Of a stretch of 64,000 bases of DNA, positions 52,382 through 64,000 are shown piece by piece. Within the stretch, counting starts at the first letter, position 1. Each line of letters opens with the position of its first letter. Source of the stretch: Janibacter sp. CX7 (GTDB lineage Bacteria; Actinomycetota; Actinomycetes; Actinomycetales; Dermatophilaceae); assembly GCF_024362365.1 (NCBI RefSeq), contig NZ_CP101464.1, positions 2,542,001 to 2,606,000 of the forward strand, given 5' to 3'. A model generated the notes under the pieces. It saw nothing but the letters and a program-made list of their open reading frames with translations, was not told the DNA's origin and made no database searches. Position numbers and translations under genes: made by a program.

Positions 52382-53206
52382 TCAGCTGCGGCGCTGGCAG
52401 TTGGCGCACCAGTAGAGGGTGCGGCCGGCGACGTCCTTCGAGCGCACCTTCGACCCGCAGACCACGCAGGCCTCGTCGGTGCGCTTGTAGACATAGCTCG
52501 TCCGCTCCGTCAGGTGCACGTCCTCCCCCTTCGCCAGGGCGGCCTCGACCTGCTCGACCTGGTCGTCGACGGTGACGATCCGGCTCGTGGCCACTCCGAG
52601 CGGCAGCAGCCGCCGCAGGTCCGCCCAGACGAGGTCCCACGACGCCCGCTTGAGCCGCTCCCCCGGCGTCGCGGGGTTGATCCGGTGCCGGTAGAGGACC
52701 TCGCAGCGGTAGACGTTGCCGACGCCCGCGAGCACGTCCTGCTCCATGAGCAGGGCCGCGATCGACTTGCGGGAGCGTCGGATCCGCTCCCACGCAGGCC
52801 CACCGTCGGTGTCCCGCAAGGGATCCGGCCCGAGCTTCGCGTGCACCGCGTCCTCCTGCTCGGGGGTGATGACCGCGCAGGTCATCGGTCCGCGCAGGTC
52901 GGCCACGTGCTCGTCGGTCGCGATGCGGCAGCGCACCTGCCCGATGACCGGCCGCTCACCGACATAGGCGGCCTCGTCGATGGTGAAGGTCCCGATGAGC
53001 CCGAGGTGGACGTGCAGGATGCGGTCGCCGGCGAGCTCGACGAAGAGGTGCTTGCCGTGGGCGCGCGCCTCGAGCAGCTCGTGACCGGTGAGCAGCGCCG
53101 CGCCGGTGGCGAAGCGCCCCTGCGGGGACGACACCTCGACGACCTGGCCGGCAAAGGTGGCGTGCAGGTCGCGGGCGATGCGGTGGAGGGTGTGGCCTTC
53201 GGGCAT
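52382..53206 (-). CDS. nei: Fpg/Nei family DNA glycosylase (endonuclease VIII)
   Basis: 274-residue bifunctional glycosylase/AP lyase for oxidised bases. The N-terminal MPEGHTLHR has the catalytic Pro and Glu and is of the Nei type (PEGHT, not PELPE). HxTH-type helix region GVGNVYRCEVLYRHRINP follows, and the C-terminal zinc finger is CVVCGSK...YWCANC. It begins 12 nt after the ku stop on the same strand, so the two form a repair operon. Confidence 0.95.
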   Translation of the reverse strand: MPEGHTLHRIARDLHATFAGQVVEVSSPQGRFATGAALLTGHELLEARAHGKHLFVELAGDRILHVHLGLIGTFTIDEAAYVGERPVIGQVRCRIATDEHVADLRGPMTCAVITPEQEDAVHAKLGPDPLRDTDGGPAWERIRRSRKSIAALLMEQDVLAGVGNVYRCEVLYRHRINPATPGERLKRASWDLVWADLRRLLPLGVATSRIVTVDDQVEQVEAALAKGEDVHLTERTSYVYKRTDEACVVCGSKVRSKDVAGRTLYWCANCQRRS

Positions 53207-53218
53207 GACGAAGGGGGC

Positions 53219-54163
53219 TCAGCTCGCCTTCTTCTTCGCAGCGGCCTTCTTGGCCGTCGTCTTCTTGGCGGCAGCCTTCTTGGTCGTCGCCTTCTTCGCC
53301 GTCGTCTTCTTGGCGGCGGCCTTCTTCGTCGTGGCCTTCGAGGCGGAGGTCTTCGCCGGCGCCTTCTTCGCCGTCGAGGTGCTCTCGCCACGCGCGGTCT
53401 TCGCCTTCTCGACGGACCTGGCCAGCGCCGCGAGCAGGTCGACGACCTCGCCCGACTCGTCCTCGTCGGCCTCGACCTGCTGGACCTCTCCCCCGTCGAC
53501 CTTGGCCTTGACGAGGGCCTCGACGGCCAGGGCGTAGTCGTCCTCGAACTCGTCGGGCTCGTAGTCGCCGGCGAGCTCGTCGATGAGCATGCGCGCCATC
53601 GACATCTCCTTGTCCGACAGCTCCTGGTCCTCGATGGTGGCGAAGTCGGCCGCGCGGATCTCGTCGGGCCACAGCATCGTCTGCATGACGATGACGCCGT
53701 CGCGCACGCGCAGCACGGCCATCGTCATCCGGCTGCGGATCGAGACGGTGACGATCGCCATCCGGCCCTGGGCCTCGAGCGCCTCGCGCAGCAGGACATA
53801 GGGCTTGGTCGCCGTCTTGTCCGGCTCGAGGTAGTAGCTCTTGTCGAGGAGCATCGGGTCGATCTGGTCCTCGGGCACGAACTTCTCGACGCTGATCTCC
53901 TTGTTGCTGCGCGTCGGCAGGTCGGCCATGTCCTCGTCGGTGAGGATGATCATCTGACCGTCCTCGGTCTCGTAGCCCTTGGCGATGTCGTCGTAGGCCA
54001 CCTCGTCGCCGTCGATGCTGCAGAAGCGCTTGTAGCGGATGCGCCCGCCGTCGGTGCGGTGCACCTGACGGAACTGCACGTCGTGGTTCTCGGTCGCGGA
54101 GTACAGGCGGACGGGGACGTTGACGAGGCCGAAGGAGACGGCACCCTTCCAGATCGCGCGCAT
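53219..54163 (-). CDS. ku: Ku protein, non-homologous end joining
   Basis: 314-residue DNA-end-binding homodimer. MRAIWKGAVSFGLVNVPVRLYSAT starts the Ku core (about 1-255) with YKRFCSIDGDEV and LDKSYYLEPDK. From about residue 255 the tail is almost all Lys, Ala, Thr and Ser (AAKKTTAKK repeats), longer and more basic than in many Ku proteins and likely to bind DNA. TAGGCT (54170-54175) is 6 nt before the ATG, so the mRNA is probably leaderless. LigD is not in the window. Confidence 0.96.
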   Translation of the reverse strand: MRAIWKGAVSFGLVNVPVRLYSATENHDVQFRQVHRTDGGRIRYKRFCSIDGDEVAYDDIAKGYETEDGQMIILTDEDMADLPTRSNKEISVEKFVPEDQIDPMLLDKSYYLEPDKTATKPYVLLREALEAQGRMAIVTVSIRSRMTMAVLRVRDGVIVMQTMLWPDEIRAADFATIEDQELSDKEMSMARMLIDELAGDYEPDEFEDDYALAVEALVKAKVDGGEVQQVEADEDESGEVVDLLAALARSVEKAKTARGESTSTAKKAPAKTSASKATTKKAAAKKTTAKKATTKKAAAKKTTAKKAAAKKKAS

Positions 54164-55207: not shown

Positions 55208-56422
55208 TCAGCGCCCGCCGCGCCGCGCCAGCGCCTCACCCACGACGTGCTCGGCGATCGCGAGCGCCGAGGTGGCGCCGGGTGACGGCGCATTGCGCAC
55301 CATGACGACACGGTCGGTGCCGGTGATGACGAAGTCGTCGACGAGCTGGCCGTCGGAACCCATGGCCTGCGCGCGCACGCCCCGCGTGCCACGCACCGCC
55401 CCCGAGGTGTCGAGGCTCGGCACGTAGCGCTGCGCCTCCGCGACGAAGTTGCGTGAGCTGAGCGCGGTGCGCGACTCCCGCACGGCCGCGGACAGGTTGG
55501 CCGCGGCGAAGCGCCAGAAGCCGGCAAAACCCACGACGTCGAGCACGTCGGCGGGGACGGGCAGCGAGCGCCGGTAGGACTCCCGCCCCAGGGAGAGGAA
55601 GGCATTGGGCCCGAGCGTCAGCACCCCGTCGACGCGTGGGGTCACGTGCACCCCGAGGAAGGGGTAGCGCGGGTCCGGCACCGGGTAGACCATGCCCCGC
55701 ACGACATCGCGCTGCTCCCTCGGGAGCACGAAGTAGTCGCCGTAGAAGGGCACGATCCGCGGGGCACGGTCCTCGCCGAGCAGGCCGGCCACCCGGTCGC
55801 TCTGCAGCCCGGCGCAGACGATGACCAGGTCGAAGGCGCCGGTGTCGCGCGCCCCGCGCGCCACCGTCGACACCCGCACCTCGGTGCCCTGCTCCTCCAG
55901 CCCGACGACCTCGTGCCCGAGGCGGACCTGCCCGCCGGCGGCGGTGAGCTCGCCGCCCAGGGCTCGGGTGACGGCCGGGTAGTCGACGATCGCCGTCTGC
56001 GGGGAGTGCAACGCGCGCACCCCCGTGGCGGCCGGCTCGATCTCGCGCAGCCCGTCGGCGTCGACGAGCCGGGCACCGGGCACGCCGTTGGCCACGGCGC
56101 GCGCATGGAGGTCGTCGAGCCGCCCCGCCTGCACGTCGTCGAGGGCGACGACGACCTTGCCGCACTCCTCGTAGGCGATGTCGTGCCGCTGCACGAAGTC
56201 CTGCAGCAGGCCCACGCCCCGTCGGCACAGCGTCGCCTTGAGGCTGCCCGGCTCGTAGTAGAGCCCCGCGTGGACGACCCCGCTGTTGTGGCCCGTCTGG
56301 TGGCCGGCGAGGTGCTCCTCCTTGTCGAGCAGCGTCACCTGCGCGTCGTGCTCGGCGGCGAGGTGCCGCGCGACGGCAGCCCCGATGATGCCGCCGCCGA
56401 CGACGGCCGCGCGCAGGCTCAT
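55208..56422 (-). CDS. lhgO: L-2-hydroxyglutarate oxidase/dehydrogenase
   Basis: 404-residue DAO-type flavoprotein converting L-2-hydroxyglutarate to 2-oxoglutarate, with electrons passing to oxygen or quinone. VVGGGIIGAAVARHL binds FAD, and the family-specific HQTGHNSGVVHAGLYYEPGS is intact, as are VDYPAVTRAL and GTDRVVMVRNAPSPGATS. The ATG overlaps the CoA-transferase stop by four bases (ATGA). As the distal gene of the transporter-gcdH-CoA-transferase operon, it fits a role in C5-dicarboxylate breakdown. Confidence 0.95.
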   Translation of the reverse strand: MSLRAAVVGGGIIGAAVARHLAAEHDAQVTLLDKEEHLAGHQTGHNSGVVHAGLYYEPGSLKATLCRRGVGLLQDFVQRHDIAYEECGKVVVALDDVQAGRLDDLHARAVANGVPGARLVDADGLREIEPAATGVRALHSPQTAIVDYPAVTRALGGELTAAGGQVRLGHEVVGLEEQGTEVRVSTVARGARDTGAFDLVIVCAGLQSDRVAGLLGEDRAPRIVPFYGDYFVLPREQRDVVRGMVYPVPDPRYPFLGVHVTPRVDGVLTLGPNAFLSLGRESYRRSLPVPADVLDVVGFAGFWRFAAANLSAAVRESRTALSSRNFVAEAQRYVPSLDTSGAVRGTRGVRAQAMGSDGQLVDDFVITGTDRVVMVRNAPSPGATSALAIAEHVVGEALARRGGR

Positions 56423-57552
56423 GCCCCCTCCCCCGGCACGACGAAGGGGGGCGGCGCCGTGCGATAGGTGGCCGGGGTGCGGGCCAGGGTGATCGGGTGG
56501 GCGATGGTGGCCACCGATCCGCCTGCGGCGGAAGGGATCTCGTGCACCGGCTCGAGCCCGAGCCTGCGGGCCAGCTCGAAGGCCTGGCCGAGGTCGTTGA
56601 TCGGTCCGCAGGGCACCCCCTTCGCCGACAGCACGTCGAACCAGTGGTCCGCGCCGTGCTCCGCCAGGGCGTCCTCGAGCTCCGCCGCGAGGACCGACCG
56701 GTGCGCGACCCGGTCGGCATTGCTCCCGAAGCGGGGGTCGTCGGCCAGCTCGGGCCGGTCGACGCCCTGCGCGAGCAGGCGGAAGAGCTTGTCGTTGGCC
56801 GCCGCGATCGCCAGCGGGCGGTCGGCGGTGGCGAGCACCTCGTAGGGCGCGATGCTCGGGTGCAGGTTGCCCATCGGCCCCGGCACCGCGCCGGTGACGG
56901 CGTGCGTGGACGACTGGTTCGACAGCGCCGACAGCAGCGAGGAGAGCAGGTTGACCTCCACCCGCTGCCCCTCGCCGGTGCGGTCACGGTGACGCAGCGC
57001 CGCGAGGACGCCGATCGCCGCGTGCAGGCCGGTGATGACGTCGACGAGCGCGACGCCCGACTTCATCGGGCCCGACTCGGTCGACCCGGTGACCGACATC
57101 AGGCCGCCGACCGCCTGGGCGACGAGGTCGTAGCCGGGCAGGTCGGCGCCCGCGCCGGAGCCGAATCCGGTCACCGAGCAGTAGACGAGCCCGGGGTGCC
57201 GGGCGGACAGCTCGTCGTAGCCGAGGCCGAGCCGATCCATCGTGCCGCTGCGGAAGTTCTCCACCACGACATCACACCCCGCGACGAGGTCGAGCGCCAC
57301 CTGGCGGTCGGCCTCGTCGCGCAGGTCGAGCACCCGGGAGGTCTTGTTGCGGTTGACCGAGAGGAAGTACGTCGACTCCCCTTCGTCCGACCACGGCGGG
57401 CCCCAGGCACGGGTCTCGTCGCCGCCGTCCGGGCGCTCGACCTTGATCACCTCCGCCCCGAGGTCGGCCATGAGCATGGTCGCGTAGGGCGCCGCCAGCA
57501 CTCGGCTGAAGTCGGCGACCCGCACGCCCTCGAGGGCACCGGGGGTGATCAA
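56419..57552 (-). CDS. CaiB/BaiF (class III) CoA-transferase, probably glutarate-specific
   Basis: 377-residue family III CoA-transferase. VADFSRVLAAPYATMLMADLGAEVIKVE is the family opening, and the catalytic Asp lies in LPGYDLVAQAVGG. Between gcdH and lhgO, the expected reaction is succinyl-CoA + glutarate to glutaryl-CoA + succinate, as in human SUGCT; the specificity is inferred from neighbours. Both ends overlap neighbours by ATGA. Confidence 0.9.
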   Translation of the reverse strand: MITPGALEGVRVADFSRVLAAPYATMLMADLGAEVIKVERPDGGDETRAWGPPWSDEGESTYFLSVNRNKTSRVLDLRDEADRQVALDLVAGCDVVVENFRSGTMDRLGLGYDELSARHPGLVYCSVTGFGSGAGADLPGYDLVAQAVGGLMSVTGSTESGPMKSGVALVDVITGLHAAIGVLAALRHRDRTGEGQRVEVNLLSSLLSALSNQSSTHAVTGAVPGPMGNLHPSIAPYEVLATADRPLAIAAANDKLFRLLAQGVDRPELADDPRFGSNADRVAHRSVLAAELEDALAEHGADHWFDVLSAKGVPCGPINDLGQAFELARRLGLEPVHEIPSAAGGSVATIAHPITLARTPATYRTAPPPFVVPGEGA

Positions 57553-58724
57553 CGGAAGGCGGCCTCTCCGGTCAGGGCTCGCCCGATGACGAGCTGGTGG
57601 ACCTCGCTCGTGCCCTCGTAGGTCAGGACCGACTCGAGGTTGTTGGCATGCCGCATGATCGGGTGCTCCAGCGTGATGCCGGCGGCACCGAGGATCGTGC
57701 GCGACTCCCGCGCGATGGCGATCGCCTCGCGGACGTTGTTGAGCTTGCCCAGCGACACCTGCTCCGGGCGGATCCTCCCTTCGTCCTTGATGCGGGCGAT
57801 CTGCAGGGCGAGCAGCATGCCCTTGCCGAGCTCGAGCGACATGTCCGCCAGCTTGGCCTGCGTGAGCTGGTAGGCCGCCAGCGGCTTGTCGAAGATCTCC
57901 CGCTCCCGCGAGTAGGTGATCGCCGTCTCGAGACAGTCACGGGCCGCGCCGAGCGCACCGAAGACGATGCCGAAGCGCGCCTCGTTGAGGCACGACAGCG
58001 GCCCCGAGAGCCCGGCCACCTCCGGCAGCACCGCCTCCGCGGGCAGCCGCACGTCGTCGAGCACGAGCTCGCTCGTCACCGACGCCCGCAGCGACACCTT
58101 GCGCTTGATCTCGGGGGCAGAGAATCCGGGGGTGTCCGTCGGCACCACGAAGCCACGCACCTTGTCCTCGGTCTGCGCCCAGACCACCGCGACGTCGGCG
58201 ACCGACCCGTTGGTGATCCACATCTTGCTGCCGTTGAGCACCCAGTCGTCACCATCGCGTCGGGCGCGGGTACGCATACCCGCCGGGTTGGACCCGAAGT
58301 CCGGCTCGGTCAGCCCGAAGCACCCGATCGCCTCCCCGGCAGCCATCCGCGGCAGCCACTCCTGCTTCTGCTCCTCGCTGCCGTGCTTCCAGATGGCAAA
58401 CATCGCCAGCGACCCCTGGACGGACACGAGCGAGCGCAGCCCGGAGTCACCGGCCTCGAGCTCCATGCACGCCAGCCCGTAGGCCGTCGCGGAGGTCCCG
58501 GCACAGCCGTAACCCTCCAGATGCATCCCGAGCACCCCGAGCCGGCCGAGCTCGGGCGCCAGCTCCCGCACGGGGAAGGAACCCTCCTCGTACCAGCCGG
58601 CGATCCCCGGACGGATCCGGTCGTCGACGAAGCGCCGCACCGTGTCCCGGATCGCGCGCTCCTCCTCACCGATCAGCTCGTCGGTCGCGAAGAGCCCGAG
58701 CGGGCTCTGGGCGGCGTTGCTCAC
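57549..58724 (-). CDS. gcdH: Glutaryl-CoA dehydrogenase
   Basis: 391-residue acyl-CoA dehydrogenase that oxidises and decarboxylates glutaryl-CoA to crotonyl-CoA. LTEPDFGSNPAGMRTRA and WITNG are the family FAD regions; the catalytic Glu is in LTYEGTSEVHQL. The glutaryl-CoA subgroup is indicated by SGLRSLVSVQGSLAM (Arg that binds the distal carboxylate) and by EHPIMRHANNLES near the C-terminus. ATGA overlaps link it to the binding-protein gene upstream and the CoA-transferase downstream. Confidence 0.94.
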   Translation of the reverse strand: MSNAAQSPLGLFATDELIGEEERAIRDTVRRFVDDRIRPGIAGWYEEGSFPVRELAPELGRLGVLGMHLEGYGCAGTSATAYGLACMELEAGDSGLRSLVSVQGSLAMFAIWKHGSEEQKQEWLPRMAAGEAIGCFGLTEPDFGSNPAGMRTRARRDGDDWVLNGSKMWITNGSVADVAVVWAQTEDKVRGFVVPTDTPGFSAPEIKRKVSLRASVTSELVLDDVRLPAEAVLPEVAGLSGPLSCLNEARFGIVFGALGAARDCLETAITYSREREIFDKPLAAYQLTQAKLADMSLELGKGMLLALQIARIKDEGRIRPEQVSLGKLNNVREAIAIARESRTILGAAGITLEHPIMRHANNLESVLTYEGTSEVHQLVIGRALTGEAAFR

Positions 58725-59710
58725 TTGGCCTCCTCGAGGGCGCGCTCCGAACCCGCGTGCAGCGGGATCGGGCCGGTCTCGGTCATCGTCTTGACGTCGA
58801 TCTCCTCAGCGGCCGGGTGCACCTTCACGAGGGCGTCCTTCTCGTCGATCATGAGCTTCGTCAGGGCGCAGGCGACGTTGTCCTCCATGTCCTCGCGCAC
58901 GACGATGACATTGGGCACCGCGATCGTCGGCACGTCGGCGTCGAGGTCGTAGGTGTCGGCGGGGATCGTCGACTCCTCGTAGACCTCGTTGACCTTCTGC
59001 ATGTCGCCGAGCTGGTCGGTGATGTCGATGAACTCGACGTCGTCACCCATCGAGGTGAAGAGGTCGGTGATGGCCGGCGTCGGCAGACCGCCCGACCACA
59101 CGAGCCCGTCGATGGACCCGTCCTTCATCCCGTCGACGGTCTTCGTCAGGTCGAGCCGCTGGCGCTTGACGTCCTTGAGGTCGAGGCCGGAGGTCTCGAT
59201 GAGCCGGTTGGCGATGACCTCGGTGCCCGACTTCGGCGAGCCGGTCGAGATCGTCTTGCCCTTGAAGTCGGAGATCGAGTCGATGCCGGACTTCTTGCGC
59301 ACGACGACCTGCGTGTAGTTGGAGTAGATCCGGCCGAGCGTGCGGATGTCCTGCTTCTCGGTGAAGGAGCCCGAGCCGTTGACCGCGTCGGCGGCGGTGT
59401 CGGCGAGGGAGAAGCCGGCGTCGTAGTCGCCGGCCACGACCTGCTGGATGTTCTGCACGGAGGCCCCGGTCTCGGCGGAGGTCGCCTGCAGGTCGGTCTT
59501 GTCGTTGACGATCTTGGCCAGGCCGCCGCCGATGACGTAGTAGACGCCGGTCGAGTTGCCGGTCGCGATGTTGAGCCGGCCCTGGCCGGTCTCGCAGCTG
59601 TCGGCGGCGGCGCCCGAGTCGCCGCTGCGGTCCTGCTGCCCGCCGCAGGCGGACAGGGTCAGGGCGGCGGCCAGGGTCAGTCCGGTGAGGGTGGTGGTAC
59701 GGCGCATCAT
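58721..59710 (-). CDS. TAXI-type TRAP transporter solute-binding lipoprotein
   Basis: 329-residue extracytoplasmic binding protein. Lipobox LTLSAC; then the TAXI signature LNIATGNSTGVYYVIGGGLAKIVN, ETGASVQNIQQV and FKGKTISTGSPKSGTEVIANR. TAXI proteins bind dicarboxylates or amino acids such as glutamate; here the operon partners suggest glutarate or 2-hydroxyglutarate. It lies 43 nt after the fused permease and overlaps gcdH (ATGA). Confidence 0.94.
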   Translation of the reverse strand: MMRRTTTLTGLTLAAALTLSACGGQQDRSGDSGAAADSCETGQGRLNIATGNSTGVYYVIGGGLAKIVNDKTDLQATSAETGASVQNIQQVVAGDYDAGFSLADTAADAVNGSGSFTEKQDIRTLGRIYSNYTQVVVRKKSGIDSISDFKGKTISTGSPKSGTEVIANRLIETSGLDLKDVKRQRLDLTKTVDGMKDGSIDGLVWSGGLPTPAITDLFTSMGDDVEFIDITDQLGDMQKVNEVYEESTIPADTYDLDADVPTIAVPNVIVVREDMEDNVACALTKLMIDEKDALVKVHPAAEEIDVKTMTETGPIPLHAGSERALEEAK

Positions 59711-59753
59711 CGAGCCTTTCTGAGGGGGTGGGTGTGGCGGGGTCGAAGGGAGG

Positions 59754-61916
59754 TCAGGTGGCGGGTGTCGGGGTGGAGCCGCCCGCGACCCGTCGTCGCA
59801 CGAGGTGCAGCACGATGGCGAGGGCGAATACGGCGAAGCCCAGGGCGATGGACAGCGGGACGAGGTAGAGCAGGAGCAGTGCGGCGGGCACGCACAGCGC
59901 CCGCTCGAGCCGGCTTGTCGGGCCGAACATCCAGCCGGTCGTCGCGACGGCCAGGGCCGCGACCGCGGTGCCGGCGACGAGGAAGGCCCACACGATGTCG
60001 ACGAAGCCGCCCTCGGCGAGCAGGAAGGCTCCGTTGTCCGTGACGACGAAGGCCATCGGGGCGAGGAAGGCGGGCAGCGTGTACTTGCAGGCCTGCATCA
60101 TCGTCGGGATGACCTTGCCCCCGGTGATCGCCGCGGAGGCGACGGCCGCGAGCGCGGTCGGCGGCGACACCTCCGACAGCACCGCGTAGTAGAAGATGAA
60201 CATCGCGACCTGCGGCGACTCGACACCCAGCGCGATGAGCGCCGGCCCGATGATCACCCAGCTGAGGATGAAGGACGCCGTGACCGGGACGGCCAGGCCG
60301 AGGATGAGGATCGCGACGGCGGAGAAGAGCGCCGAGAGGATGATGAGCGAGGCGTCGTTGAAGGCGATGGCATCGGCCGCCTTGACGAGCACGTCGGAGA
60401 GGATCTGGCCCAGGCCCGTCTTGGCGATGACCGAGGTGATGATGCCGGCCGCGGCGCAGACCGCGATGACCGGCAGCGCGGAGCGGATGCCCGAGCTGAG
60501 CGCCGTGTAGAGGCGCACGCCGAAGTCCTTGAGCGAGGCCCCGAGCTCGAGCCGCTCGGGCTCGCCGTCGACCTCGTCGAAGCCGCTGACGACGCGCCGG
60601 CGCGAGAGCACCGCCTCGGCGAGGCCGAAGAGGGCGGCCACGGCCGTCGCGTAGACGACCGCCTTGAAGGGCGGGACGTCGATGGCGAGGAAGAAGACGA
60701 TGACGCCGAGGCTGATGAAGTGGTAGCCGGAGCGCACGAGCAGGCGAAGGGGGTTGACGATCGCCAGCTCGACGCGGCTGGCCCCGAAGCGGCGGGCGTC
60801 GATCTCGACGGCGAAGAAGATGCCGAGGTAGTAGAGCAGCGTCGGCACGATCGCCCAGATGAGCACCTCGACGTAGGAGACGCCGAGGTACTCGGCGATG
60901 ATGAATGCCGCGGCGCCCATCGTCGGCGGCGAGAGGATCGCGCCGATGCCGGCGGCGGCGAGCATGCCGCCGGCCGCCTCCTTCGGGTAGCCGGCTCGCT
61001 TGAGGATCGGCCAGGCGAAGGAGCCGAGGGTCACGGCGGTCGCCGTGCCCGACCCGGAGACGGTGCCGAGCAGGAAGCCGGAGAGGGCCGTCGTGCGGCC
61101 CGGGGCCGAGGCGGACTTGCGGAAGAGGGAGAAGCTGAACTCGACGAAGAAGCGACCGGCGCCCATGCGGTCGAGCACCGCGCCGTACATCGTGAAGAGG
61201 ACGATGTAGGTCGCCGCGACGTCGAGCGGGACGCCGAAGAAGCCGGACGCCTCGTTGTAGAGCGCGTTGACGATCTGCTCGATGTTGAGCCCGAGGTGGC
61301 TGATCGACCAGCCGACGGGCAGGAAGCCGCCGTAGTAGGCGTAGGCGAAGAAGACGACGCAGACGACGGGCAGGACGAGGCCGGTCGTGCGCCGGGTGGC
61401 CTCGAGGACGAGGACCATGAGGATCAGGCCGGCGACGATGTCCATCGTCAGCAGCGAGCCCTGCCGGTCGAGGAAGCCCTCGTAGCCACCGAAGCCGAGC
61501 TCGTTGAGCGGGATCGGCAGCAGCGGGTAGAGCCCGACGAGCATCGCGACGGCCGCGAGCACCCAGTCGAGGATCCCCGGGTCGTCCTTCTGCGGCACCC
61601 GACCCACGGTGTCGGTGCCGGGGTCGATGTCCGCAGCCCGCTCCCTTCGCCCGCGCATCCGGTAGGTGAGGAAGACCAAGGGCAGGGTCACCGCGAGGAA
61701 GAGGACGAGGTAGTACTGGCTCCCCTGCTCGACCGGGTCGAAGACCTGCTTGAGGACGAAGAGGGCGACGAGGAAGCACCACACCCCGACGAGGAGGTCG
61801 AGGCGCGGCGAGAGCTGCCGCGAGGGCTTCTCCTCGTCGTAGTCGGCGACGATCGTGTCGACGTCGACGGGCTCGGGGGTGAGCTGCTGCTCACGGGCGA
61901 CGCTGTCCGTTGGCAT
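59754..61916 (-). CDS. TRAP transporter fused permease (TAXI system)
   Basis: 720-residue permease joining the small (DctQ-like) and large (DctM-like) TRAP subunits in one chain, as TAXI systems do. About 16 hydrophobic segments follow a charged N-terminus of 40 residues; SGFLLGTVSGSGTATAVTLGSFAWP and AAAGIGAILSPPTMGAAAFIIAEYLG are the large-subunit loops. Transport is driven by an ion gradient. Start ATG 61916 has TAACTT (61924-61929) 7 nt upstream, hence a leaderless first gene of the operon; a GTG at 61946 lies upstream of that box. Confidence 0.93.
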   Translation of the reverse strand: MPTDSVAREQQLTPEPVDVDTIVADYDEEKPSRQLSPRLDLLVGVWCFLVALFVLKQVFDPVEQGSQYYLVLFLAVTLPLVFLTYRMRGRRERAADIDPGTDTVGRVPQKDDPGILDWVLAAVAMLVGLYPLLPIPLNELGFGGYEGFLDRQGSLLTMDIVAGLILMVLVLEATRRTTGLVLPVVCVVFFAYAYYGGFLPVGWSISHLGLNIEQIVNALYNEASGFFGVPLDVAATYIVLFTMYGAVLDRMGAGRFFVEFSFSLFRKSASAPGRTTALSGFLLGTVSGSGTATAVTLGSFAWPILKRAGYPKEAAGGMLAAAGIGAILSPPTMGAAAFIIAEYLGVSYVEVLIWAIVPTLLYYLGIFFAVEIDARRFGASRVELAIVNPLRLLVRSGYHFISLGVIVFFLAIDVPPFKAVVYATAVAALFGLAEAVLSRRRVVSGFDEVDGEPERLELGASLKDFGVRLYTALSSGIRSALPVIAVCAAAGIITSVIAKTGLGQILSDVLVKAADAIAFNDASLIILSALFSAVAILILGLAVPVTASFILSWVIIGPALIALGVESPQVAMFIFYYAVLSEVSPPTALAAVASAAITGGKVIPTMMQACKYTLPAFLAPMAFVVTDNGAFLLAEGGFVDIVWAFLVAGTAVAALAVATTGWMFGPTSRLERALCVPAALLLLYLVPLSIALGFAVFALAIVLHLVRRRVAGGSTPTPAT

Positions 61917-61923
61917 GCCGGGT

Positions 61924-61929
61924 AAGTTA
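61924..61929 (-). promoter_or_regulatory. -10 box for leaderless TRAP/glutarate operon
   Basis: TAACTT on the minus strand, 7 nt before the permease ATG at 61916. Confidence 0.5.
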
Positions 61930-61937
61930 GGTGCGAT

Positions 61938-61952
61938 CCGGGTCACACCCGG
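61938..61952. promoter_or_regulatory. Palindrome in TRAP operon/two-component intergenic region
   Basis: CCGGGTCACACCCGG has perfect 6-bp arms and a 3-bp centre. It sits upstream of the operon's -10 box, near the expected -35 position, within the 111-bp divergent gap, a plausible response-regulator or repressor site. Confidence 0.45.
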
Positions 61953-62027
61953 GCCGGAGCCGCACGGACTTTACATACATCTGACCTTGGGCCCCGGCAC
62001 GACTGCACCACTGCTCAACGGAGAGAC

Positions 62028-62687
62028 ATGCGAGTCCTGCTCGTCGAGGACGACGACCGCGTGGTGGCGGCCCTGACCCCCGCCCTGCGCCGAGCCCATC
62101 TCACGGTGACCCGCGCCGGCACCGCCGCGGAGGCCCTCTCGGCCGTGCCGGGGGCCGACCTCGTGCTCCTCGACATGGGGCTGCCCGACCAGGACGGCCT
62201 GTCGGTGTGCCGACGCATCCGCGCAGAGGGTGACGTCCCGATCATCGCCGTCACCGCCCGCCGCGACGAGCCCTCGGTCGTCTCCGCCCTGCGCGCCGGG
62301 GTCGACGACTACGTCACCAAGCCCTATCGCCTCGCCGAGCTCATGGCGCGCATCGACGCCGTCATGCGCCGCTCCGGCCACGGCGTCCCCGAGTCGCTCG
62401 ACCACGTCGCCGACGTGCGCCTCGACCTCGGCGCCCGCCGCGTGTGGGCAGGCGAGGTGGAGGTGACGCTGACCCGCAAGGAATTCGACCTGCTGTCGAC
62501 CCTCATCGACGCCGGCGGCGACGCCGTCACCCGCGAGTCGCTCATGGAGTCCATCTGGGACACCTCGTGGGTCGGCGCCTCGCGCACCCTCGACGTGCAC
62601 GTGTCCGCGCTGCGCACCAAGCTCGACCGACCCCGGCTCATCGAGACCGTGCGCGGCGTCGGCTACCGGATCAACGCGCAGGGGTGA
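62028..62687 (+). CDS. OmpR-family response regulator
   Basis: 219-residue two-domain regulator. The receiver domain has VEDDD, the phosphoacceptor Asp at residue 49 (LVLLDMGLPDQDG) and Lys 98 (YVTKPYRL); the DNA-binding winged helix has TRKEFDLLSTLI and the terminal RGVGYRIN. GGAG lies about 5 nt before the ATG. Divergent from the TRAP/glutarate operon and followed directly by a sensor kinase, so it probably controls that operon, as TctD/TctE controls tricarboxylate uptake in other bacteria. Confidence 0.95.
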   Translation: MRVLLVEDDDRVVAALTPALRRAHLTVTRAGTAAEALSAVPGADLVLLDMGLPDQDGLSVCRRIRAEGDVPIIAVTARRDEPSVVSALRAGVDDYVTKPYRLAELMARIDAVMRRSGHGVPESLDHVADVRLDLGARRVWAGEVEVTLTRKEFDLLSTLIDAGGDAVTRESLMESIWDTSWVGASRTLDVHVSALRTKLDRPRLIETVRGVGYRINAQG

Positions 62688-62690
62688 GCG

Positions 62691-64000
62691 GTGCGACGAC
62701 GGATGCTCGTCATCGCCCTGCCGCTGCTGACGATGCTGCTGCTGGCGCTCATGGTGCCGCTGCTCGCGGCCCACGCCGCCGACCGCACGCAGGACCAGTT
62801 CGTCGGCCGCCTGGGTGACGTCGCGCGCTTCGCCGTGCTCGCCGAGAGCGCCATCGAGACCGACGAGACGGCAACGCTCGAGAGCGAGCTGCAGCGCTAC
62901 ACGGAGGTCTACGGCGGCTCGGTCCTCGTCGTCGACGCCAACCGCGACGTCGTGGTGGCTGCCGGTGGTGGCGATGCCGCCGCCGGCGGTGGGGAAGCCG
63001 CCGCCGGCGGTGGAGAAGCCGGCGCCGGCGGTGCAGGCGCCGCCACGGCCACCGACGAGGCCGTCACGCGTGCCCTCACCGGCGCGACGACCGTGCCACC
63101 CGACACCGCGTGGCCGTGGCGCGACGAACCGATGCTCGTCGGCTCCCCGGTCGGGCGCGACGCGCAGGTCCTCGGCGCCGTCATCGTCACCGCCCCGACC
63201 GACGGCGTCCGCAGCGACGTGACGGTGCGCCTGGCGCTCATGGGTGCGCTCGCCCTGGCAACGCTGCTGCTGACCGTCTTCGGAGTCATCCGGCCGCTCG
63301 TCGGGTGGGTGCTGCGGCCGGTGCACGCGCTCGACCGCACGGCGACCCGGCTCAGCTCGGGCGACATGGGGGCGCGGGCGAGCGAGACCGGCCCGCCCGA
63401 GCTGCGCGAGCTGGCCCGGTCCTTCAACGACATGGCCGACAGCGTCGAGGCCTCGCAGGCGCAGCAGCGCGAGCTCGTCGCCGACGCCGCACACCAGCTC
63501 GGCAACCCCCTGACGGCGTTGCGGCTGCGCGTCGAGGGCCTGGCCTCCGACGGGGTCGACCGCGACCAGGTCGAGCCGGTCCTCGAGGAGACCGACCGGC
63601 TGAGCGCGACCGTCGAGTCGCTGCTGCACCTCAGCCAGGTCGGGGCGACGCAGGTGGTCGCCGAGCCCGTCGACGTCGCCGCCCTCGTGCGCCACCGCTG
63701 CCAGATGTGGGACCCGGTCTTCGCCGCGCTCGAGGTGCGCACTCCCCCGTCGGCGATCGCCCTGGCCAGCGCCGAGGTCGTCGACACCGCGATGGACGCG
63801 CTGCTCGACAATGCGGCGAAGTTCGCCCCCGGCTCCCCCGTCCTCGTCAGCGTGCAGGTCGCCCCGGCCCCCGCAGGCGAAGGGGGCGTGCCCACGGTCC
63901 GAGTGCGGGTCGCCGACGGCGGGCCCGGCCTGCACCCGGACGACGTCGCCAAGGTCGGCGCGCGCTTCTTCCGCGGCCGGGCCCACCAGAACGTGCCGGG
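62691..64000 (+). CDS. Sensor histidine kinase (3' end outside window)
   Basis: Partial membrane kinase, 436 residues visible. A first membrane helix (about 4-26), an extracytoplasmic sensor loop containing heptad GGGEAAA-type repeats (about residues 84-115), a second helix (about 180-205), HAMP, and a phosphoacceptor His near 268 in DAAHQLGNPLTALRLR. The ATP domain starts with the N-box MDALLDNAAKFAP and G1 box ADGGPGL. AGGGG lies 8 nt before the GTG, 3 nt after the regulator stop. The C-terminus lies beyond the window. Confidence 0.94.
   Translation, partial: MRRRMLVIALPLLTMLLLALMVPLLAAHAADRTQDQFVGRLGDVARFAVLAESAIETDETATLESELQRYTEVYGGSVLVVDANRDVVVAAGGGDAAAGGGEAAAGGGEAGAGGAGAATATDEAVTRALTGATTVPPDTAWPWRDEPMLVGSPVGRDAQVLGAVIVTAPTDGVRSDVTVRLALMGALALATLLLTVFGVIRPLVGWVLRPVHALDRTATRLSSGDMGARASETGPPELRELARSFNDMADSVEASQAQQRELVADAAHQLGNPLTALRLRVEGLASDGVDRDQVEPVLEETDRLSATVESLLHLSQVGATQVVAEPVDVAALVRHRCQMWDPVFAALEVRTPPSAIALASAEVVDTAMDALLDNAAKFAPGSPVLVSVQVAPAPAGEGGVPTVRVRVADGGPGLHPDDVAKVGARFFRGRAHQNVP

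Follow-up and report, generated by a model that had tools for sequence, protein, structure and literature searches.

A TAXI-TRAP uptake operon with probable glutarate-catabolism genes in Janibacter sp. CX7 and its proposed TAXI-dependent two-component sensor

Which acid does Janibacter sp. CX7 import through a TAXI-type TRAP transporter encoded beside probable glutarate-catabolism genes, and what tells the cell to make it? The question arises at one end of a 64,000-nucleotide stretch of DNA (the window, positions 2542001-2606000 of a 3.23-Mb single-contig genome), where five leftward genes encode a fused TRAP permease, a TAXI-family binding protein (TAXI1), glutaryl-CoA dehydrogenase (gcdH), a class III CoA-transferase and L-2-hydroxyglutarate oxidase (lhgO), and where a gene pair for an OmpR-type response regulator (RR) and a histidine kinase (HK) runs rightward, away from the permease gene. 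A first-pass annotation made from the DNA had described this layout, and all seven genes were found at the coordinates it gave, with profile and structure matches that agree with its calls. It missed a second TAXI gene (TAXI2), which comes after HK beyond the window edge and has no adjoining permease. We consider it fairly probable, judging from sequence comparisons, that the locus serves to take up and break down an amino-free C5 dicarboxylate, most likely glutarate, and is induced by that substrate through TAXI2, HK and RR.

According to this proposal, TAXI1 would capture the C5 acid at the cell surface and the fused permease would bring it into the cell, where the CoA-transferase would form glutaryl-CoA, probably with succinyl-CoA as the donor, GcdH would convert glutaryl-CoA to crotonyl-CoA and LhgO would convert any L-2-hydroxyglutarate to 2-oxoglutarate. 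TAXI2 would serve as the extracytoplasmic reader of the ligand and signal to HK, and phosphorylated RR would bind a direct repeat at 61963-61984, switching on the five genes from the permease to lhgO.

Recurrence of the operon and predicted identity of its products

The operon is real and not a chance arrangement, because it recurs, with identical gene order, in four Janibacter genomes, in Nocardioidaceae and in Streptomyces meridianus. TAXI1 has its nearest named relatives in Janibacter indicus (91% identity), J. terrae (85%) and J. melonis (81%). Among 80 named TAXI1 loci, six (J. indicus, J. terrae, J. melonis, Nocardioides jiangsuensis, S. meridianus and Mumia quercus) contain all of TAXI2, HK and RR, a seventh (L051, a 4.1-kb contig of a metagenome-assembled genome, MAG) holds RR and an HK fragment, and the other 73 gave no match to HK. 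When 245 genomes of the Nocardioides family were searched, TAXI2 was found at E <= 1e-75 in 11, one of which is N. jiangsuensis, and each of the other ten carries TAXI2-HK-RR together with the permease and TAXI1. Because RR, HK and TAXI2 travel with the permease and TAXI1, the two-component system does look dedicated, as first proposed, although its relationship to GluR-GluK, described below, had not been noticed.

This cassette of transporter and sensor genes is present in 16 distinct genomes (L031, which is the locus of the Janibacter studied here, L046, L047, L048, L050, L052 and L270-L279; L084 and L278 are one genome). In nine of them, from three families, gcdH directly follows TAXI1; the CoA-transferase is found in eight and LhgO in six, with one contig (L273) ending inside gcdH and another genome (L270) carrying the CoA-transferase and LhgO at the locus and GcdH elsewhere. 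The claimed association of a TAXI-TRAP transporter with gcdH, the CoA-transferase and lhgO is thus found by neighbourhood search to recur across genera. In 15 genomes (14 cassette carriers, without J. indicus and S. meridianus, plus G266), GcdH was present in all and an LhgO homolog in 14, and among 20 GcdH loci (19 cassette-free ones and that of G266) a CoA-transferase match was seen in three and LhgO in three. G266 (L238), which has the same genus code as J. melonis, has ligD abutting gcdH-CoA-transferase-lhgO, and the whole of TAXI2-HK-RR-TRAP-TAXI1 is gone as a single block, so transporter and sensor are gained or lost as a unit. What looked like a remnant of TAXI2 next to ligD in this genome was discarded as an artefact of a reference open reading frame (ORF) over-extended N-terminally across the ligD start region.

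TAXI1 and the permease gene are spaced by 43 nt, and TAXI1, gcdH, the CoA-transferase gene and lhgO are joined by three 4-nt overlaps (GTGA, TTGA and ATGA); the overlaps had been reported correctly, but as ATGA throughout, which holds for one of the three. Family models were passed by LhgO (NF008726, 491 bits against a cut-off of 299), TAXI1 (TIGR02122, 286 against 84) and the permease (TIGR02123, 412 against 321). Among the matches listed, GcdH is closest to solved glutaryl-CoA dehydrogenases (3swo, 2.3e-195; human 1siq, 1.9e-112), and the human enzyme outranks short-chain acyl-CoA dehydrogenases among the best 60 listed. The TYEGT and SGxRS stretches line up with those of characterised enzymes, and the catalytic Glu and the substrate-binding Arg are present. 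No NCBIfam acyl-CoA dehydrogenase model reached its cut-off with GcdH, the equivalog NF045552 giving 207 bits against 470; this is presumably a model of a Desulfococcus-type enzyme that does not represent the present clade. The CoA-transferase is of class III (Pfam PF02515, 1.2e-123), matches human SUGCT (9br7, 4e-79) and has the succinate--glutarate CoA-transferase model NF052585 as its top NCBIfam model among seven listed; by these matches it is probably a succinyl-CoA:glutarate CoA-transferase. As in known glutarate catabolism through GcdH with a CoA-transferase and through CsiD-LhgO, all three enzymes are present, but the locus departs from the latter route in that CsiD is absent: zero PF08943 matches were obtained in the whole genome of this Janibacter and in each of the 15 genomes searched, the E. 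coli control being positive. The earlier statement that the hydroxylase CsiD/GlaH is missing therefore holds beyond the window.

Permease-less TAXI genes beside GluR-GluK-type kinases

RR and HK are 50% and 36% identical, respectively, to a pair in a Streptomyces locus (L167) in which, as in the family f22, an RR-HK-TAXI module adjoins gluABCD; the TAXI neighbour in L167 matches named Streptomyces proteins. GluR-GluK controls gluABCD in S. coelicolor, and GluK is reported to bind glutamate and not glutamine (PMC9739842). Like that system (SCO5778-79 beside SCO5774-77), the Janibacter locus has an OmpR-type regulator followed by a kinase, homologous to the gluABCD-adjoining pair, next to a transporter operon that would be under its control, and like the Streptomyces gluABCD loci examined it has an orphan TAXI gene beside or near the kinase. 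Unlike GluR-GluK, the pair stands beside a TAXI-TRAP transporter and catabolic genes and not a glutamate ABC system, with no gluA or gluB match in the locus. On these grounds of homology and context, it is a relative of GluR-GluK and not GluRK itself. AfsQ3 had been considered as the known counterpart of RR-HK and was set aside when the modules turned out to adjoin gluABCD. The available text of the review on GluR-GluK (PMC9739842) gave no match for TAXI or solute-binding terms.

A census with TAXI1 as query, covering 197 genomes of the class, yielded 93 matches from 56 of them, a few of these matches being pieces of one gene; 89 lie in examined loci and four outside them, and TAXI genes in the later work were located by tblastn. 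HK without TRAP lies within 1.5 kb of 56 of the 89, TRAP without HK accompanies 23, both accompany four and neither six, although five of these six have HK 1.7-5.7 kb away. On a tree of 96 TAXIs, the sensor or transport label changes three times, against a mean of 27.3 after shuffling, and none of 500 shuffles was as low. Two of the three changes are mislabelled TRAP-side TAXIs (L145_8497 and L146_8485, kept among the sensors in the counts), and the third, L147_4343, is a real or unsettled exception. The cassette TAXI2 groups with the HK-linked TAXIs, next to those of two modules with a KgtP-like carrier (L170 and L185).

The nearest transporter within 6.5 kb of the 60 sensor-labelled TAXI rows is gluABCD in 21, TRAP in 14 (four of them assigned by hand as cassette TAXI2), DASS in six, a KgtP-like MHS carrier of the major facilitator superfamily (MFS) in four, TctA in four and DctA in two, with no recognised transporter in nine; representatives of these assignments were checked. 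The top NCBIfam model of the MHS protein, under its cut-off, is NF007710 (PRK10406), which we take to be the KgtP model. Partner type changes seven times on the TAXI tree. TAXI-HK-RR is therefore the constant part of the modules and the adjoining transporter, of at least six kinds, the variable one; because of this, and because gluABCD and TRAP bring their own binding protein, the gene neighbourhoods argue that the orphan TAXI serves signalling. The linkage of a binding-protein gene to a kinase, which marks binding-protein-dependent sensor kinases, is what the census found. The arrangement proposed here resembles BctC-BctDE of Bordetella and similar sensor kinases, in which a solute-binding protein reports the ligand to a transporter-inducing kinase (PMC9602780, PMC5812351); it differs in that BctC is the transporter's own TctC-type protein, whereas the Janibacter kinase is accompanied by a TAXI copy of its own. 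In L201-L204, RR-HK-TAXI modules adjoin a TctA gene (by Pfam for L204, with TctB- and TctC-like genes called by eye), and these modules may therefore sense tricarboxylates or related acids.

The ligand pocket and the rival readings

TAXI1, modelled with a mean pLDDT (predicted local distance difference test) of 89.5, has as its nearest folds TAXI proteins with glutamate and VCA0144, and it shares the binding-protein fold (Foldseek TM 0.80-0.90) and the fused permease with the TAXI-TRAP glutamate systems VcGluP/VcGluQM and TtGluBP. In VcGluP the amino group of the ligand is contacted by Y45, Q93, E125 and M201, with Y45 and Q93 mattering most for affinity and E125 less (PMC11574862). The Janibacter proteins differ from VcGluP and TtGluBP at this point: TAXI1, like all 80 orthologs, has L and N in place of Q93 and E125, and TAXI2 has L and S. 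The pocket residues of both proteins thus speak against an amino acid as the ligand. Residue 125 is acidic in all 21 gluABCD-adjoining sensor TAXIs and in none of the 16 beside MHS, DASS, DctA or TctA, and it is the best column for acidity (0.99 bits, the next 0.63; Fisher p 8e-11), but the count overstates the evidence because the tree allows just one independent contrast. In loci that hold both a sensor and a transport TAXI, the acidity of residue 125 agrees between the two in 26 of 26 rows examined (three acidic, 23 not; 24 distinct loci in 22 genomes). Residue 93 is mostly A beside gluABCD and not Q, so the glutamate sensors are not simple copies of VcGluP.

These patterns lead us to a wider proposal, which we advance tentatively: that the permease-less TAXIs of Actinomycetia form a sensory TAXI branch, working as three-component sensors with GluR-GluK-type pairs beside at least six transporter families, in which residue 125 would switch between glutamate (acidic) and an amino-free carboxylate (Ser or Asn), and that the window system would be a glutarate-retargeted member including the first TAXI-TRAP glutarate importer. 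If true, this would explain what the many 'TRAP binding proteins without a TRAP transporter' of Streptomyces and related bacteria do, tie orphan TAXIs to a kinase family known for glutamate sensing, supply a sequence rule predicting the kind of acid read by each sensor, and describe a binding-protein-dependent glutarate importer. The known glutarate importer, KgtP, is by contrast an MFS carrier; it takes up glutarate in E. coli, and the 2025 biosensor paper with this result describes it as the first report of a microbial transporter for glutarate uptake (PMC12622518). Neither a TAXI-kinase sensor arrangement nor a TAXI glutarate importer turned up in searches of open-licence PMC papers, which agrees with the earlier suggestion that a TAXI transporter serving this pathway may be undescribed; the available text of PMC12344293 mentions orphan TRAP binding proteins and gave no match for kinase or two-component.

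Several observations weigh against glutarate as the substrate, or against the proposed control. None of the three enzymes follows TAXI1 in six of the 16 cassette genomes, a gcdH ortholog (82-97% identical) is present in only five of the 80 TAXI1 loci and lacking in 75, and gcdH is widespread without the cassette (116 of 149 family genomes). The CoA-transferase scores 324 bits against the NF052585 cut-off of 750. Two loci, L049 (Mumia sp.) and L055 (a Nocardioidaceae MAG), have a close TRAP-TAXI1 pair, with the permease 73-75% identical, and no RR-HK in the locus DNA. Scattering of the gene set in relatives, which the first-pass annotation had named as grounds for giving up its assignment, is thus partly seen, in the enzyme-free cassettes and in the TAXI1 loci that lack gcdH, so that the system may act on C5 dicarboxylates more broadly.

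The strongest rival accordingly concerns the substrate. The acid that transporter and sensor handle might be another amino-free dicarboxylate, or a wider range of them (2-oxoglutarate, 2-hydroxyglutarate or a C4 acid), gcdH, the CoA-transferase and lhgO being later local additions in some lineages. Since the TAXI1 pocket is the same in all 80 orthologs, most of them without gcdH, and the enzymes are missing from some cassettes, the ligand could indeed be 2-oxoglutarate, 2-hydroxyglutarate or another dicarboxylate. KgtP moves 2-oxoglutarate, and the KgtP-like carriers of the sister modules may do so too. In addition, 2-oxoglutarate and C4 acids are reported to inhibit glutarate uptake (PMC12622518). 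Nevertheless, the position of gcdH right after TAXI1 in three families, mostly with the CoA-transferase, exceeds a loose neighbourhood, and we regard this rival as rather unlikely.

The second rival is that HK reads the ligand through its own extracellular domain, with TAXI2 as a scavenger that binds substrate and hands it to the permease or to another carrier. S. coelicolor GluK was reported to bind glutamate in a biolayer assay (PMC9739842), from which it follows that the TAXI may be dispensable for sensing, a further point against our proposal. The modelled HK also has a small folded alpha/beta extracellular domain, which could suit this rival but neither supports nor excludes direct ligand reading; a fold search with HK returned mostly kinase cores among the best 50 of 582 matches. 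Against it stand the orphan TAXIs themselves, which stay with RR-HK across the different transporter kinds, several of them needing no TAXI protein, and the tree, which with few exceptions sets sensor TAXIs apart from transport TAXIs. We judge direct sensing by HK to be unlikely, and keep TAXI2 as the probable reader of the ligand.

The promoter gap, coordinates and neighbouring genes

Eight aligned gaps between RR and TRAP contain a conserved 22-mer, here called Box A, with a self-identity of 0.56 at lag 11 (next 0.40 at lag 9). A matrix built from these eight gaps found one strong site just upstream of TRAP in each of nine non-training genomes (24.0-31.6 bits, the next best at most 15.4), and the site stays at TRAP in L276 and L277, where RR sits 4.0 and 1.8 kb away. 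Box A reaches 20 bits in seven of the 80 TAXI1 loci, the seven with HK (all matrix members), and in none of the 73 without HK, where the best scores, 18.7 and 18.6, lie far from TRAP. That RR-HK controls something else and shares the gap by coincidence, as the distant RR of L276 and L277 and the kinase-free L049 and L055 could suggest, is very improbable given that Box A accompanies TRAP in the cassettes, those two included, and was not found in the 73 kinase-less loci. The first-pass annotation had missed this direct repeat and pointed to a 15-bp palindrome in the 111-bp gap; we rejected that as an operator, since it is 73% complementary and not conserved across the eight gaps.

Box A-like sites (20.4, 20.4 and 16.6 bits) also occur 118-154 bp upstream of the MHS gene in three MHS-carrier modules, and two other MHS-linked loci have none. 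Since KgtP takes up glutarate, the boxes before these KgtP-like genes count in favour of our proposal. The matrix is uninformative for the gluABCD, DASS, DctA and TctA groups (best 5.6-14.8 bits, with 17.1 in one DctA locus), among which a lag-11 repeat signal stands out in the gluABCD group only. The gluABCD promoters of four Streptomyces loci (L167, L168, L174 and L190) carry, 86 bp before gluA, a CTCAGAT direct repeat spaced at 11 bp that may be a binding site of GluR.

Nearer the permease gene, a TGTGA-N6-TCRC motif is conserved in the eight gaps, though degenerate in J. melonis (L048). The form in the window, which we take to be CRP/GlxR-like, suggests CRP/GlxR-type control from a position between the RR box and the nearby start codon. 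The -10-like element reads TACGTT in six of the eight gaps and stands 6-7 nt before the TRAP ATG. An upstream GTG (61946) was rejected as the TRAP start in favour of ATG 61916, because the conserved promoter spacing points there.

Table 1. Features of the operon, its promoter gap and its regulators, in window coordinates unless stated otherwise
Feature	Position	Strand	Evidence
lhgO, L-2-hydroxyglutarate oxidase, 404 aa	55208..56422	-	NF008726 above cut-off; solved relative 8w75
Class III CoA-transferase, 377 aa, TTG start	56419..57552	-	PF02515; NF052585 below cut-off; human SUGCT 9br7
gcdH, glutaryl-CoA dehydrogenase, 391 aa, GTG start	57549..58724	-	3swo and 1siq matches
TAXI1, TAXI-family transporter lipoprotein, 329 aa	58721..59710	-	TIGR02122 above cut-off; structure model
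Fused TRAP permease, 720 aa, ATG 61916	59754..61916	-	TIGR02123 above cut-off; start from promoter alignment
-10-like element TAACTT, 7 nt before TRAP ATG	61924..61929	-	Alignment; putative function
TGTGA-N6-TCGCA motif	61932..61947	-	Alignment of eight gaps; putative function
Box A, two 11-bp direct repeats, candidate RR operator	61963..61984	-	Alignment and matrix search
RR, OmpR-type response regulator, 219 aa	62028..62687	+	Pfam PF00072, PF00486
HK, histidine kinase	62691..64000, on to equivalent 64151 past the window	+	Pfam HAMP, HisKA, HATPase_c
TAXI2, permease-less TAXI gene	L031 10634-11785 (window-equivalent 64634-65785)	opposite to HK	ORF listing

The complete HK ORF occupies L031 8691-10151, and the TAXI2 ORF as listed is too long at its N-terminus, its true start being internal. 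The cassette of this Janibacter, like that of J. melonis, sits between a ku gene and a ligD-like gene (52382-54163; L031 12598-13485), flanks that mark a DNA end-joining neighbourhood, the ligD call having been made by eye. Adjoining ligD, L031 13544-16782 holds genes that by eye resemble a GntR regulator, dihydrodipicolinate synthase, a short-chain dehydrogenase/reductase (SDR) and a dehydrogenase, another possible catabolic operon.

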